DNA of 64,000 nucleotides from an uncultured Fibrobacter sp. (GTDB lineage: Bacteria > Fibrobacterota > Fibrobacteria > Fibrobacterales > Fibrobacteraceae): contig CAMUYW010000001.1 in the NCBI GenBank assembly GCA_947165045.1, positions 62,001 through 126,000 on the forward strand, written 5' to 3'. A program made the translations under genes and the position numbers. Positions 57,300 through 64,000 of the stretch are shown here, in pieces; positions within the stretch are counted from its first letter, which is position 1; every line of letters begins with the position of its first letter. The notes beneath the pieces are model-generated. The model did no database searches, was not told the DNA's origin, and saw only the letters and a program-made list of their open reading frames with translations.

Positions 57300-60200
57300 A
57301 TGAAAATTAAGAAGATTGAATTTTGCAATATCAACTCCCTTGTCGGCGAATGGACTATTGATTTTGAATCTCCGGACTTTGCGAAAAGCGGCATGTTTTG
57401 TATTTCGGGCCCGACTGGTTCTGGAAAAACTTCGATTCTTGATGCGATTTGCCTTGGCTTGTACGGCAAGACGCCGCGTTTGGGCGCTATTGTGGGCGAT
57501 ACGAATGAAGTGATGACCTATGGCGCAAAAAATTGCTATGCAAAAGTGACTTTTGAGTGTGGCGCTACAGTATATTCTGCGCGTTGGGAACAGCATCGAT
57601 CTGCGAGGACGAATAAACTCCAAAAGTATTCTTGGGTGCTAACGAACGAAACTTCGCAAACGGTAGAATCTTCGTTCTCGAAGCAGTCTGAAATTGAAGC
57701 AACGATGACTCGCGTAATTGGCCTTGACTTTGGTCAGTTTACCAAGTCGATGATGCTTGCTCAGGGCGAATTCAACAAGTTCCTAAAGTGTAATGAAAAT
57801 GAACGCGCCGCGATTCTTGAAAAACTCACAGGCGATGGAATCTATAGAAAGATTGCCGTTGCAGTCCATGATTTATACGCTAGTGCCAATAAAGCTGTAG
57901 AAGATATTGAAAGTAAAATTGGCGATGTAAGTTTATTGAGTGATGAAGAGCTTGCTGAATTGAGTGCGAAAATCGCGGACGCAGAGTTGCAAAAGAAAAC
58001 GCTTGCTGAAGAAACGGAACGGCTGCTTTATATTTGCACGTGGTTTGAAAATCTGCATGGCTTTGAAAAGCTTTTGTCAGAATCGAAAAGTCAGTTAGAA
58101 AAAGCGGAAAACGCGCGATCGGAATTTGAACCGAATCGTAAAAAATTGGAGCATGCATTGCATGCGCAAGAAGTCGAATCGTCGTTTGTGGAATTCAAAT
58201 CGATTCTCGATAATCTTGCTCGCATGAAATTACAACTTGATGAGAATAAGAAAAATCTCCCTGCGGCTGCGGAGAATTTTAAGCAGGCATCGGAGAAAAA
58301 TCGCGAGGCTCAAGCTGCTTTTGAAAAGTGCAAGGCGGATTATTTTGCAAGTGAATCTGTGTGGGAACAAGTCTCATCGCTTGATGTCGATATTCGAAAT
58401 GCGCGAGTACAACTGAAAAACGCAAAGGATGCTGTTGCAAAATTTGCAGGCGAATCAGAAGAAGCGCAAAAGAAAATTGATGGTGTGGACAAGCGGATTT
58501 TTGATAATGAGCAGGCGCTAGAAAAAGTTGAAAAGTACATTGCCGAAAATCAGAAAGACGAAGCTATTGATGGCCAAATTTCACTTTTGAAATCGCAGAT
58601 TGCAGAATGGAAAACGGAAAACGAGAATGTATCTGCTGAAGCGCAAAAACTTGAAACGTTAAAAAAGTCTTTGCAAGATCTTGATGCTGATTTCGAAAGG
58701 CAAAAGCTCGATTTGCAAACATTGCAGGAATACTTGGCGCAACATCAAACAGATGCCGAACTTGTAAATGTCCTCCCTGAAATGAGCGGTTTAGCAAACG
58801 ATGCTGAACGCCATCACAAAGAATTTGAACGCTTACAAGGCGAATTTGATTCAAAGCAAAAGCAACTTGAAAATGTTTGTGCGGAAAGTGCGCAAACTCT
58901 TGAAAAGTTGACTGCTTTGCAAAAAGACAAAGAAACGATTATTCAAGAGGATATTCCTGTTGTTGTCGCTGAATTGCGCCGTAACTTGAAACCTGGCGAA
59001 GCTTGCCCTGTCTGCGGATCTCGTGAACACGTTTCTTGTGAGGATGCTACAAAAATTGAAAATGGCGCAGACCGCCTCAATGATTTTGCGGATAAATTGC
59101 GTAAAATCAATGGCGAAATGGAACAAATCCAGCGTACGCTAGATAGCTTTGCTACGCAACAAAAACATTTTGAAGAAGTGTTAGCCGAAAGTGCGCGAAA
59201 GCAAAAAGACGAATCTACAGCAGAAACGTATGCACTCGAACAACTCAACGCAAAACTCGAACCGTGGAAAAAAACTGCAATACTTGAAACAACGCGTGCC
59301 ATCTTGCAAGAACTTTCTGAATTGAAAAATGCATACTTGCAGAAAAAAGAAAAAGCCGATGCTTTGCAGAACGAAGTCAATCATGCTGCGGTGAATCGTG
59401 CAAGCCTTGTTGGTAACGCCAATCTTGCAGAAGAATCCCTTAAGAAATCGCAATCGAAAGTGCAAAAACTCTCGCAAGAAATCGAAACAATTTTTGCAGA
59501 ATGGTTCTCGAACATCCGTATGGAAGATGTTGATGCGTTGCTCGCTGAATTGGAAAAGAAAAATGTTTGGTGGAAAAAAGCACAGGAGAAAAAAACTAAA
59601 GTCGAGAATGACTTGAACATGGACCGCTCCGCGAAAACTCAGCATCAAGAAAATCTTGTGCAAGCCCAAATGCGCCGAGATGATGCGACTGCCAAACAAA
59701 ATGAAATTCAACAAAATCTAGATACGCTCGATGCAAAACGCAAAGAACTCTTTGGCGAAAAATCTGTAGAAGTGGAGCGCAATAAGGCGCGAACTTTACG
59801 CGAAGCTGCGGAAACATTGGCGAATGAAACGCTTCGCAAAGAGCAACAAATGCGCGAAGAAAAAATGTCGCTTGACAATTCCATCGCGGAGCTTGGCTGC
59901 CGCATTGCAGAAACGGAACCGAAACTTGCGCAGTTGCAGGCGAACTTCCTTGAAAACCTTTCCGCTAAAGGCTTTGCGGATGAACAAGAATTTATCGCTG
60001 CAAAACTTCCTGAAGCCGAACGTAAATCGCTCCAGCAATTGCAAAAGAATGTGGATGATAATTTGACAACTGCGCAAACTTCGGTCAAGAATTTTAATGA
60101 CCAGTTGGCGCGACATCTAGAGAAACGCGACTTCGAAGAATCCGAAGAAATTGCAAAGCAAAATCGCGACACGGCGAAAGCGAAACTGAACGAGTGCACT

Positions 60201-60827
60201 GTAAATCTTGCAACATGGACGGAACAGAAAAAGAACGATAATTTGCACCGCCAAAAATTTAACGATATGCAAGCGGAACTTGTAAAACTTAAGTCGAAGC
60301 GTGCCGATTGGGAGCAAATGCAGCGTTGGTTTAACGGCAATAGACTTGATACAGGCAATGGCGATGTGTTCGTTCGGTTTATCCAAACAATCACGTTGCG
60401 TAATTTGTTAAAAATTGCGAATGGCTATTTGCGCGATATGTTTCCTCGTTATGAAATGATAACCGCTCCGAATACGCTCAACATTCAGCTTGTAGATCAT
60501 GACAACAGCGATGCTGTACGCCCGATCGATAACATTTCAGGTGGCGAAGGTTTCCTCGTAAGCTTGTCGCTTGCACTTGGCATCTCGACACTTGCAAGTC
60601 GCAACGTGCGCATTGATTCCATGTTCCTCGACGAAGGCTTTGGAACGCTCGATTCCAAGATGCTCCAGGAAACCGTTGTCGTGCTCCAGAAAATGCAACA
60701 GGAAAAAGGAAAACTTCTTGGTGTCATCACGCATGTGGATTTGGTCAAAAGCGAACTTCCCACGCATATTGAAGTTACGCCTTGCGGTGGCCGCAGCGTC
60801 CTCAGCGGCGCCGGCGTGCAGCAGTAA
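57300..60827 (+). CDS. sbcC: Exonuclease SbcC (SMC-like ATPase with CxxC zinc hook)
   Basis: Walker A 'FCISGPTGSGKTSILDAICLGLYG', hook 'PGEACPVCGSREH', 'ISGGEGFLVSLSLALGISTL', 'MFLDEGFGTLD'. Confidence 0.95.
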   Translation: MKIKKIEFCNINSLVGEWTIDFESPDFAKSGMFCISGPTGSGKTSILDAICLGLYGKTPRLGAIVGDTNEVMTYGAKNCYAKVTFECGATVYSARWEQHRSARTNKLQKYSWVLTNETSQTVESSFSKQSEIEATMTRVIGLDFGQFTKSMMLAQGEFNKFLKCNENERAAILEKLTGDGIYRKIAVAVHDLYASANKAVEDIESKIGDVSLLSDEELAELSAKIADAELQKKTLAEETERLLYICTWFENLHGFEKLLSESKSQLEKAENARSEFEPNRKKLEHALHAQEVESSFVEFKSILDNLARMKLQLDENKKNLPAAAENFKQASEKNREAQAAFEKCKADYFASESVWEQVSSLDVDIRNARVQLKNAKDAVAKFAGESEEAQKKIDGVDKRIFDNEQALEKVEKYIAENQKDEAIDGQISLLKSQIAEWKTENENVSAEAQKLETLKKSLQDLDADFERQKLDLQTLQEYLAQHQTDAELVNVLPEMSGLANDAERHHKEFERLQGEFDSKQKQLENVCAESAQTLEKLTALQKDKETIIQEDIPVVVAELRRNLKPGEACPVCGSREHVSCEDATKIENGADRLNDFADKLRKINGEMEQIQRTLDSFATQQKHFEEVLAESARKQKDESTAETYALEQLNAKLEPWKKTAILETTRAILQELSELKNAYLQKKEKADALQNEVNHAAVNRASLVGNANLAEESLKKSQSKVQKLSQEIETIFAEWFSNIRMEDVDALLAELEKKNVWWKKAQEKKTKVENDLNMDRSAKTQHQENLVQAQMRRDDATAKQNEIQQNLDTLDAKRKELFGEKSVEVERNKARTLREAAETLANETLRKEQQMREEKMSLDNSIAELGCRIAETEPKLAQLQANFLENLSAKGFADEQEFIAAKLPEAERKSLQQLQKNVDDNLTTAQTSVKNFNDQLARHLEKRDFEESEEIAKQNRDTAKAKLNECTVNLATWTEQKKNDNLHRQKFNDMQAELVKLKSKRADWEQMQRWFNGNRLDTGNGDVFVRFIQTITLRNLLKIANGYLRDMFPRYEMITAPNTLNIQLVDHDNSDAVRPIDNISGGEGFLVSLSLALGISTLASRNVRIDSMFLDEGFGTLDSKMLQETVVVLQKMQQEKGKLLGVITHVDLVKSELPTHIEVTPCGGRSVLSGAGVQQ

Positions 60828-60838
60828 CCTTTAGCTGT

Positions 60839-60862
60839 CACACCGGCCTCCGTGCCGGTGTC
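60839..60862 (+). terminator. Inverted repeat/terminator after sbcC
   Basis: ACACCGGC-CTCCGT-GCCGGTGT followed by a weak T-rich tract. Confidence 0.55.
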
Positions 60863-60934
60863 GGCTTTAATTCTTTTGTCATTTTGCGTAAAAAAAAACT
60901 ATAATAACATTATAGGATTTATCAGGGGCGTATC

Positions 60935-62581
60935 ATGAATGTTAAAGGTCTAATTAAAGGCGCGTGGTCGAACGGAATCGCCAAGAAACTTTTGATTTTG
61001 CTTGTTTTGTCGCTTATCATTTTCGTCATCGGCGTGATGATTGGCTCGTGGGTGCTTGGTGAAAAATCACTCGGCTGGAAAGGCTTTTTGTCGGGCTACG
61101 TTGTTTTTGCGGTGCTGTTCATCAGCGTCATGATTAACGTTTTCAAGAATACATCGGAATCCATGCGCGAAGGAAAAAAGCATGTCGATGTTCGCGGTCA
61201 TGTGCTTGTGCTTGGTGCGGGCCACCAACTTAAAAGTATCTTGCGTGCGCTTAAAGGTGATAAACGCCCGATTGTTGTGATGAGTCGCCGCGATATCGAT
61301 GGCCACTTTATCCATTATAAAAAAGATTACGAAAACGAAGATGACTTGCTTTATGCGGGGGCTTTGTTGGCGGATATGATTCTCGTAATCGGTGAGGATG
61401 GTCCGGAACGCGATTCCCGTAACTTGCATTGCGTTGAAGTGTTGCGTAGCATTAGCGAAAAAGCGATGCGCGATATTCATTGCCATTTGCTGTTGAGCAA
61501 TCCTTCGACTTCTGAAATTTTGTGGTACTTGAAGGCTCCAGAACAGAATAAAGGTCATTTGCTGGTCGATGTTTTTAACGAATATGAATTCATGTCGGAG
61601 CAATTGCTCGTTGGAACGGATTTCTTACCGACCATTCGCGAGGCGGAAAATGAACGCTTGCATGTTGTGTTGCTTGGTACGGGGCCGATTGCGCAGGCTG
61701 TGGCGTTTGCTGTGGCGAATGTGTGCCATTATCCGAACTTTAAACGGACGAATTTAAAAACATGTATCACTTTTGTTGATGAAGATTGTGAAAAGTGGGT
61801 GGACCGTTTGGTAGTCTCTCGCATGGGACTTTTTAGACTTTCAAAGTACACGTATGTTGATGCGAACGGAAATAAGGTTTCTCATGATCCGGAGACAAAT
61901 CGCGGCGATTATCTCGATGTGGAATGGAATTTTGTAGACGCTTACTGCGAAGCTGATTTGGCACGTAACTTTATTGCCGCCGTGGCGGCCAGTCCCAAAG
62001 AACGGCTTGTGGTGTGCATTTGTAAGGAAGATGCGTCTAAGGCGATTTCGACACTTGTGCATTTGCCGCGTGCTGTTTACGATAACGCTGACATTGCGGT
62101 GTATTGGCGCGAGGCGAATGACGATATCATCAAGCGTATTAACGAAAGCGGAATGTATGGCTATGTACGCATCATGGGCGACATCGATGAAATGAAGGAA
62201 TTTGTCCGGTCGAAACGCGTGGAACGCGGCCAGCGTGCAAACTATGTTCGTGAACGTCATTTGAATCCTGAAACTCGCGATACTGAAGAAAAAATGTGGT
62301 ATCGCTTGAGTGAAGCAGACAAGACCGCTGCAATTTATTGCGCGAATGCGCTTCCGCTTCGTAAACGTTGCTTTGAAATTACAGATGACGATTCCCTATT
62401 GCGCGATGCGGAACATCGTCGATGGATGATGTCAATGCTCCTGATGGGATATCGCTCTGGTCCGACCGACGAAAGAACGTTTACGCGCCATGACATCATT
62501 CCGTTTGATCGCTTGCCCGAAGAACTGAAAACGAAGGATTCGTACATCCTTGAAAATGCTGAATACATTATGAACGGGTAA
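60935..62581 (+). CDS. Membrane protein with TrkA-N/Rossmann-like cytoplasmic region and C-terminal RyR domain
   Basis: Two N-terminal TMs; 'VRGHVLVLGAGHQLKSILRALKGDKRPIVVMSRR' and 'LHVVLLGTGPIAQAVAFAVA'; C-term 'AEHRRWMMSMLLMGYRSGPTDERTFTRHDIIPFDRLPEELKTKDSYI'. Confidence 0.75.
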   Translation: MNVKGLIKGAWSNGIAKKLLILLVLSLIIFVIGVMIGSWVLGEKSLGWKGFLSGYVVFAVLFISVMINVFKNTSESMREGKKHVDVRGHVLVLGAGHQLKSILRALKGDKRPIVVMSRRDIDGHFIHYKKDYENEDDLLYAGALLADMILVIGEDGPERDSRNLHCVEVLRSISEKAMRDIHCHLLLSNPSTSEILWYLKAPEQNKGHLLVDVFNEYEFMSEQLLVGTDFLPTIREAENERLHVVLLGTGPIAQAVAFAVANVCHYPNFKRTNLKTCITFVDEDCEKWVDRLVVSRMGLFRLSKYTYVDANGNKVSHDPETNRGDYLDVEWNFVDAYCEADLARNFIAAVAASPKERLVVCICKEDASKAISTLVHLPRAVYDNADIAVYWREANDDIIKRINESGMYGYVRIMGDIDEMKEFVRSKRVERGQRANYVRERHLNPETRDTEEKMWYRLSEADKTAAIYCANALPLRKRCFEITDDDSLLRDAEHRRWMMSMLLMGYRSGPTDERTFTRHDIIPFDRLPEELKTKDSYILENAEYIMNG

Positions 62582-62585
62582 AAAA

Positions 62586-64000
62586 ATGAAAAAAGGATGC
62601 TTGTTATTTCTAGCTGTCGTTATTGCGACTCCTGTCACGTACCTTTTGATATCCAATCATTCGAAAAAGGCTGAAATTCAAAAAGAAATTGATTCGGTCG
62701 AGACTGTTTTTGAAAATGCCGAAAAAGATGAGCAAGCTTCTCCTAAGGCGCGCGAATCTAAACCGCTTGATCTTGAAAAGACGGTTCGTTTGTTCCATAT
62801 TTTGAATGACGGTTTTTCGACTTCAAAGAACATGTTCGAATATTTGCAGTTCTTGGCTACTCAAGATTATAGCAGTATTCCAGATGAAGTTCTTGATGCT
62901 CAAAAGAAATTATTGCCCTTGTACAAGGGAATCCGCTCGGCTGAATACGACTTAAATGAAACTCAAAAGAAACGCTATTGGAATGCCATTACCAAATCCG
63001 TTGATCTGAAAAGTATTACATCTCCCATTGCACAGATGGTGGCTACGGGAGGATTTGATCCGACTGCGGTTTTATCGCTCGCCAAGTCTGGTATTTCTTC
63101 TGGTGGGCATTTTTATGATGAAATCCAAAAGAATGATGAAATAGAAAAAAATGCCAAAAAGGCGCTTGAAGAAAATAGGGAAGCTTATTTGAATTACTTG
63201 AGCGAATATACGCTTCTTTATTTAAAGTATTTGTTTCAATGGAATGAAATGTGCTTGTTGCGCGATAGGGCGTATCTTGCCATCAACAATGGCAATGTTG
63301 GGGAGGCCATTAAATCGCTTGATGCTGTGCTGCAAAAGTATCCGACCGATTCGGAATCGCTCCTGCTGAAATCTTTCTGCCTACTTTATGGATCTGAACG
63401 CGGTGTAGATTTTTATAGTGATAAACGCAATGCGGACATCGCAAGAGATATCCTCAATCAATACATTGCGGAACATCCCGATAGAGCCGCTCCTGCGCTC
63501 GTTTTACTGGGAGCCTACTACACATTGCAAGGAGACGAAACGAAGGCCGCAATGTTGTTTGACCAATCTTCTGTCGAATATCCTCGTGAAGCAGAAACGC
63601 TGTTGGATATGTACAATTCGTACAATTATCGTAATTACTTTTTGAAGTCTAAAGAAGGCCACGTGATTCTGGAACATTACAAGTCCATGATGGAAGGCTT
63701 TGGTTTTTATTCGCCGAATTTCCAAAAGGCAATGATTGCGTACAATAAGGGAGATTTCCCTAAGGCTAAAGAAGAAATTTTAAGGCACTTCTTCCGCCGC
63801 GGAAATCAAGATGTGTATGATTATCTGATTTCAGATATGAAATTTGTAGAACAGTTTATGCCCAAAATCTTGGATATGATTTTCGAAGAACATTCTTTCT
63901 TGGATTTGCAAACATACAATCCGACACTTTCTTTCTCGGATAAGCTTGCTGTTGAAATTGAAAATCGTTCCGACAAGCGCCTTTCGAATGTCCGCCTATT
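62586..64000 (+). CDS. TPR-like membrane-anchored protein, 3' truncated by window edge (absent from supplied ORF track)
   Basis: ATG at 62586: MKKGCLLFLAVVIATPVTYLLISNHSKKAEIQKEIDSVET...; I followed the frame to 63998 (...DKRLSNVRL) and found no stop. Confidence 0.8.
   Translation, partial: MKKGCLLFLAVVIATPVTYLLISNHSKKAEIQKEIDSVETVFENAEKDEQASPKARESKPLDLEKTVRLFHILNDGFSTSKNMFEYLQFLATQDYSSIPDEVLDAQKKLLPLYKGIRSAEYDLNETQKKRYWNAITKSVDLKSITSPIAQMVATGGFDPTAVLSLAKSGISSGGHFYDEIQKNDEIEKNAKKALEENREAYLNYLSEYTLLYLKYLFQWNEMCLLRDRAYLAINNGNVGEAIKSLDAVLQKYPTDSESLLLKSFCLLYGSERGVDFYSDKRNADIARDILNQYIAEHPDRAAPALVLLGAYYTLQGDETKAAMLFDQSSVEYPREAETLLDMYNSYNYRNYFLKSKEGHVILEHYKSMMEGFGFYSPNFQKAMIAYNKGDFPKAKEEILRHFFRRGNQDVYDYLISDMKFVEQFMPKILDMIFEEHSFLDLQTYNPTLSFSDKLAVEIENRSDKRLSNVRL

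Follow-up and report, generated by a model that had tools for sequence, protein, structure and literature searches.

A divergent RCK-RyR membrane protein without a pore loop as a candidate nucleotide sensor in rumen Fibrobacter

Results

The RCK-RyR gene and its product

The window, by which we mean the whole 64,000-nucleotide stretch that was analysed, comes from a Fibrobacter draft genome, and the relatives in the named collection are Fibrobacter MAGs, mostly F. succinogenes. The gene considered here (60935 to 62581, on the forward strand, as are all window features below) is an intact open reading frame with an ATG start that encodes 548 amino acids. By hydropathy, the product begins with two hydrophobic stretches, TM helix 1 (aa 13-43; 60971 to 61063) and TM helix 2 (aa 48-72; 61076 to 61150), joined by a turn of about 4 residues (61064 to 61075) where homologues and CASTOR-like proteins have a loop of 23-35 amino acids. 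Two lobes follow: an RCK/TrkA_N-like lobe (aa 85-235; 61187 to 61639), assigned from profile alignments, a PDB profile match and fold matches, and a second RCK-like lobe (aa 240-430; 61652 to 62224), assigned from a profile alignment and fold matches. Each starts in a Rossmann-like manner, with HVLVLGAG at aa 89 and HVVLLGTG at aa 243. The C-terminus is occupied by an R12-like RyR domain (aa 440-548; 62252 to 62578), assigned from profile matches and sub-threshold matches of family members to PF02026. A first-pass annotation, made from the sequence alone, had described a reading frame with two TM helices and twin Rossmann-like segments; the former was borne out, and the latter proved to be lobes of the RCK/TrkA type, with gating-ring folds as their structural matches.

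The neighbourhood, promoter and sbcCD linkage

Pfam also bore out the rmuC-sbcD-sbcC series reported upstream on the same strand, of which sbcC (57300 to 60827) is the immediate neighbour and, in our judgement, a separate unit. The possibility that sbcC is itself a defence gene, raised by a PADLOC similarity to LmuB, was rejected, as the similarity is a general SMC/Rad50 likeness and Pfam gives the SbcC Walker B. On the other side, a TPR-containing gene (62586 to 64000) runs past the window edge and is found in only 4 carrier genomes (L009, L017/L051, L018, L048).

The hairpin that the first-pass annotation took to separate the two units does exist after sbcC (60833 to 60866; -20 kcal/mol, z -2.9) and is a possible terminator, but it is not conserved among relatives, being present only in the window genome and, in degraded form, in one relative. 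Between this hairpin and the ATG lies a predicted promoter belonging to the gene itself (60876 to 60905; TTGTCA and TATAAT at a spacing of 18, 11/12 consensus). The -10 element TATAAT is kept in 16 of the 17 loci, along with the leader to the ATG, whose sequence TTTATC(A/G)GGGGCGTATC is conserved in orthologues, and this regardless of what lies upstream.

Could the protein be a nucleotide-gated effector that acts with RmuC-SbcD-SbcC in DNA-end stress or defence, as the first-pass annotation proposed? In most carriers the gene does come next after sbcC, in the same orientation. However, the conserved promoter sits at a fixed distance whatever the upstream content, and in three genomes a gene for a 900-aa beta-helix protein intervenes between the two. 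In one further genome (G133; 9 contigs, 100% complete) sbcCD is missing from the site, the gap falling between the RCK-RyR gene and a small ORF and a kinase gene, both of which border the block elsewhere; the RCK-RyR gene and its promoter remain there, and another contig carries an sbcD of 48% identity. Conversely, the RCK-RyR gene is absent from two genomes that have a related sbcC. Moreover, the carriers group together as one clade in the RpoB tree, with a support of 100 and the gene in 9/9 sampled clade members, so that the shared position next to sbcCD reflects common descent and co-occurrence counts as one clade event. Because of the gene's own promoter, the G133 locus, the inserted genes, inheritance with the clade and the unconserved hairpin, a functional unit with SbcCD is rejected, and we regard such a partnership as very improbable. 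Neighbourhood conservation with sbcC, looked for as a check on this idea, is common among carriers but comes by way of one clade and is broken in G133. Co-occurrence of sbcC and the RCK-RyR gene across genomes was likewise rejected as a functional signal, given that the carriers are one clade, that sbcC was scored at a strict cut-off (found in 19 of 80 genomes) and that G133 has a divergent sbcD.

Some further features of this region are recorded here. The intervening gene, of the beta-helix/List_Bact_rpt kind, lies at L014:1592-4378, L021:7211-9952 and L047:10973-13756. At the G133 locus (L049:3384-20000), the RCK-RyR gene has MmeI-like restriction-modification and AbiEii-like genes to one side and, past the kinase gene on the other, recC-like and recB-like genes. 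Across the same carriers, SbcC is 65-88% identical and the RCK-RyR protein 86-97%, SbcC thus diverging much faster.

Distribution and selection

Selection on the RCK-RyR gene is strongly purifying, with a dN/dS of about 0.03 overall and 0.031 in the RyR domain, a rough ratio as dS is near saturation. On the sequence evidence, it is a core gene of one rumen Fibrobacter clade, vertically inherited. Absences, of this gene as of others, are weak evidence, since the genome searches were lossy and recovered RpoB itself in only 44 of 80 genus members; in non-carriers, synteny 3' of pyrC showed the entire block to be absent, with no simple empty site for comparison. Searches of viral, phage and plasmid sequences with the window family returned no relatives except one RyR-like C-terminus (L143). 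The sequence covers the C-terminal part of a homologue and lies at a viral contig's edge (L143:3-530), adjoining a phage-type integrase; the RyR part is 44% identical and keeps 4/4 pocket residues.

The RCK fold and the missing pore loop

The full-length AlphaFold model has a pLDDT of 61, with most of the RCK core at 70-85, and its top PDB fold matches are the gating rings of GsuK, CASTOR, Slo1 and TrkA (best E 1.5e-6). The homologues are of three kinds: the clade linked to sbcC, to which the window protein belongs, a 48% homologue (in G029 and G005; L015 and L016) and a 41% homologue (in G125; L044). The CASTOR filter has the sequence AD(S/A)GNHA (PMC6697748); the L044 homologue carries a CASTOR-like loop, FLDAGNF, and in the L015 homologue a loop occupies the corresponding position. 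The window family aligns with L046, a CASTOR-like Fibrobacterota protein, over TM1, the loop, TM2 and the first lobe (E 7.7e-10), the pore segment of L046 falling opposite a gap. In the sbcC-linked clade, about 4 residues stand in place of the loop of the homologues, and the pore loop is absent. A mis-called start was ruled out as the cause, because both the start codon and the leader are conserved. In a Pfam search, Castor_Poll_mid (PF06241) had no match in the window protein, whereas the comparison protein L046 matched at 2.5e-24.

With the pore loop gone, the output of the protein is probably not an ion-selective pore. In the earlier description as a nucleotide-gated effector or channel, the word channel has become doubtful for this clade. 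Another reading is a housekeeping protein of ion homeostasis, either a regulatory subunit of the RCK kind or a small channel, which would respond to ordinary nucleotides and be independent of immune signals. Its RCK/CASTOR/GsuK-like fold would suit such a role, as would its standing as a clade core gene that has its own promoter and is strongly constrained by purifying selection; the missing pore loop would not, nor would the lack of an adjoining transporter gene in the window, and to our knowledge a RyR tail is not part of the known K+ uptake subunits. We consider this role unlikely.

Identity of the RyR domain

The RyR domain is not found when the window protein is searched as a single sequence against Pfam, NCBIfam, PADLOC or the PDB, and a PF02026 search of the window genome gave zero matches. 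Five of the 12 family members gave a PF02026 match below threshold (best E 0.008), and none of the close orthologues reached the Pfam cut-off for RyR or TrkA_N. We therefore turn to profile evidence. A profile built from 12 homologues was run against 177,635 PDB sequences, and the best match was the phage protein RyDEP (35TM), a RyR protein, covering aa 491-540 (E 0.11); next came CASTOR, matched at aa 77-177 (E 0.45). Individually these matches are weak; jointly they name the two expected families at the expected places. In addition, a RyR/TrkA_N protein from G081 aligns with the window family, profile to profile, over 425 columns that include both lobes and the RyR domain (E 2.4e-11). This comparison protein (L074/L082) is recognised by Pfam as TrkA_N (6.9e-17) and RyR (PF02026; 7.2e-11, 42.6 bits), and it matches animal RyR structures.

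The 35TM alignment places H494, W497 and D535 of the window protein opposite H75, W78 and D117 of RyDEP (numbered as in the paper, to which the residue numbers of the 35TM chain add 1). In the RyDEP crystal, H75, W78, H100 and D117 touch the ligand, and they are conserved in PF02026 (PMC13232231). Among 17 orthologues, the predicted ligand-pocket positions are kept to differing degrees: H494 and W497 (62414 to 62425) are invariant, D535 (62537 to 62539) is D in 15/17 and N in 2/17, and the equivalent of H100, R518 in the window protein (62486 to 62488), is R in 15/17 and H in 2/17. A model of the RyR segment alone (pLDDT 57) was too poor for a fold search. Taken together, these comparisons go beyond chance and indicate that the earlier call of a C-terminal RyR domain is right, with a divergence that appears too great for Pfam to detect it from one sequence; profile alignment to a confirmed RyR protein supports the homology, but the PF02026 cut-off is not reached.

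RyDEP is itself a glycosidase (PMC13232231), and the equivalents of its catalytic dyad, H494 and D535, are mostly present here, so we considered whether the RyR domain may be a RyDEP-like enzyme that hydrolyses cADPR isomers to end a signal. Against this, D535 is replaced by Asn in two orthologues, other RyDEP homologues that were assayed bound signals without cleaving them (PMC13232231), and fusion to a membrane RCK ring would suit sensing better than catalysis. An enzymatic role seems highly improbable.

TIR-linked relatives

TIR genes are neighbours of relatives of the window protein. The 48% homologue, in both G029 and G005, belongs to an operon (L015:7633-13166; L016:7621-13346) with the order BnzB-like gene (PADLOC E 3e-30), 126-aa protein gene, DUF1353 gene, RCK-RyR gene and TIR_2 gene, the last starting 3 nt after the RCK-RyR stop. 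From its gene content this operon looks like an undescribed TIR-RyR defence system. A transposase-like gene pair is found near an operon of this type (L015:2044-3389). In G163 (L081:6011-16000), a TM-Rossmann-RyR-RyR gene is followed by SIR2-TIR, nSTAND1 and TIR-WD40 genes, and a homologue of its product follows a TIR gene on a Butyrivibrio plasmid. In G081 (L082:6128-17295), two TIR genes are flanked by the TrkA-RyR gene and by a second, differently built RyR gene. The 41% homologue with the CASTOR-like pore motif, in G125 (L044:1-10689), stands beside vWA and Tubulin_2 genes. This TIR adjacency concerns a handful of loci found via RyR searches, the background having been counted in G029 and G005 only, where the operon TIR_2 gene is the sole one found in either genome.

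The cADPR isomers that TIR enzymes produce are bound or cleaved by phage RyR proteins (PMC13232231). The recurrent pairing supports an ADP-ribose-type ligand for RyR domains of this kind and, by analogy, we infer that the window protein may have one too. The earlier remark that bacterial RyR domains are tied to nucleotide-signalling conflict systems holds for these relatives (G029, G005, G163, G081 and the Butyrivibrio plasmid).

The window gene has no TIR gene among its neighbours in the window; in its genome, TIR genes lie on another contig only, where a ThsB-like TIR gene, a second TIR gene and a caspase gene stand in a row (L085:8046-9993), a putative locus resembling a caspase-type Thoeris. 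A TIR_2 or ThsB_TIR gene was detected in 10 of 18 carriers; in the other 8, near-complete genomes included, neither was detectable, and because of this a TIR gene was rejected as a required partner.

What, then, of a stand-alone anti-phage membrane effector, one that would damage the membrane on sensing a cADPR isomer from a TIR enzyme encoded in trans? Effectors commonly combine a TM hairpin with a nucleotide pocket, the TIR-TIR-caspase locus could supply the signal, and the relatives adjoin TIR genes. On the other hand, no TIR gene was detectable in 8/18 carriers, the gene is fixed in its clade at a dN/dS of 0.03 with no sign of mobility or fast turnover, and defence genes are not adjacent in most genomes. 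A defence role for the window gene itself would be inferred by analogy with its relatives, and we find it unlikely that the protein is such an effector.

Discussion

Here, we propose that the window protein is a membrane sensor of the RCK-RyR type, domesticated and pore-less, whose ligand would be a nucleotide of the adenine or ADP-ribose class, a reading that we hold with even confidence for and against. The two-helix hairpin would anchor the protein in the membrane, the two RCK-type Rossmann lobes would come together as a gating ring, and the C-terminal RyR pocket would bind the nucleotide, its class being suggested by the published pockets of RyDEP and RyR3 and by the TIR neighbours of relatives. 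Binding would then change the ring, and the change would be passed to the membrane helices. As for the output, the protein seems more likely to act as a regulatory subunit, or as a simple membrane effector of the helix-bundle kind, than as an ion-selective pore. Such a protein would most likely descend from TIR-linked RCK-RyR channel-like proteins and have been retained afterwards as a core gene of its clade. More tentative is a wider scheme, in which a TIR-made ADP-ribose isomer gates a bacterial RCK channel through its RyR domain, and the window gene would be a pore-less side branch of that pathway, domesticated, with the sensor retained and no operon partner; we consider this possible, if rather doubtful.

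In light of this proposal, what might be learned from these proteins? The 2026 RyDEP preprint reports binding and cleavage for phage proteins only and poses the question for RyR channels (PMC13232231), and the literature searched held no experiments on bacterial RCK-RyR membrane proteins. RCK-RyR proteins encoded beside TIR genes offer a compact bacterial system in which to test whether a membrane RyR protein binds cADPR-type signals, while in the clade of the window the pore loop has been deleted naturally and the sensor retained, which makes sensing separable from conduction. If true, a TIR-to-RyR membrane pathway would be a prokaryotic parallel to the action of cADPR on ryanodine receptors.

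Among known systems, the closest in layout are the TrkA_N-RyR membrane proteins (PF02254 and PF02026), represented here by the G081 protein in L082, which have the same TM region, two Rossmann lobes and C-terminal RyR domain; the window protein is only about 22% identical to it and scores too low for Pfam, its TM hairpin is short, and it is without a TIR neighbour. The CASTOR/POLLUX/DMI1 RCK Ca2+ channels are alike in the TM region, the first RCK lobe and, in a model of moderate confidence, the gating-ring fold, whereas the window protein is without Castor_Poll_mid and the filter-bearing loop and has the RyR tail in addition. With RyDEP (35TM), it has in common the motif H..W ... D(I/M)(I/V)PF ... 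KD and the pocket H, W and D, but its RyR domain is joined to a membrane RCK protein and the H100 equivalent is mostly Arg. Bunzi comes into the comparison through the BnzB-like gene that opens the operon of the 48% homologue, though BnzA itself did not turn up; a BnzB-like gene was not found in the window genome. Finally, as in Thoeris, where a TIR-made signal meets an ADPR-sensing effector, relatives of the window protein adjoin TIR genes; the window gene, however, has no TIR partner, and the effector would be an RCK-RyR protein rather than a SIR2-SLOG, macro-TM or caspase protein.
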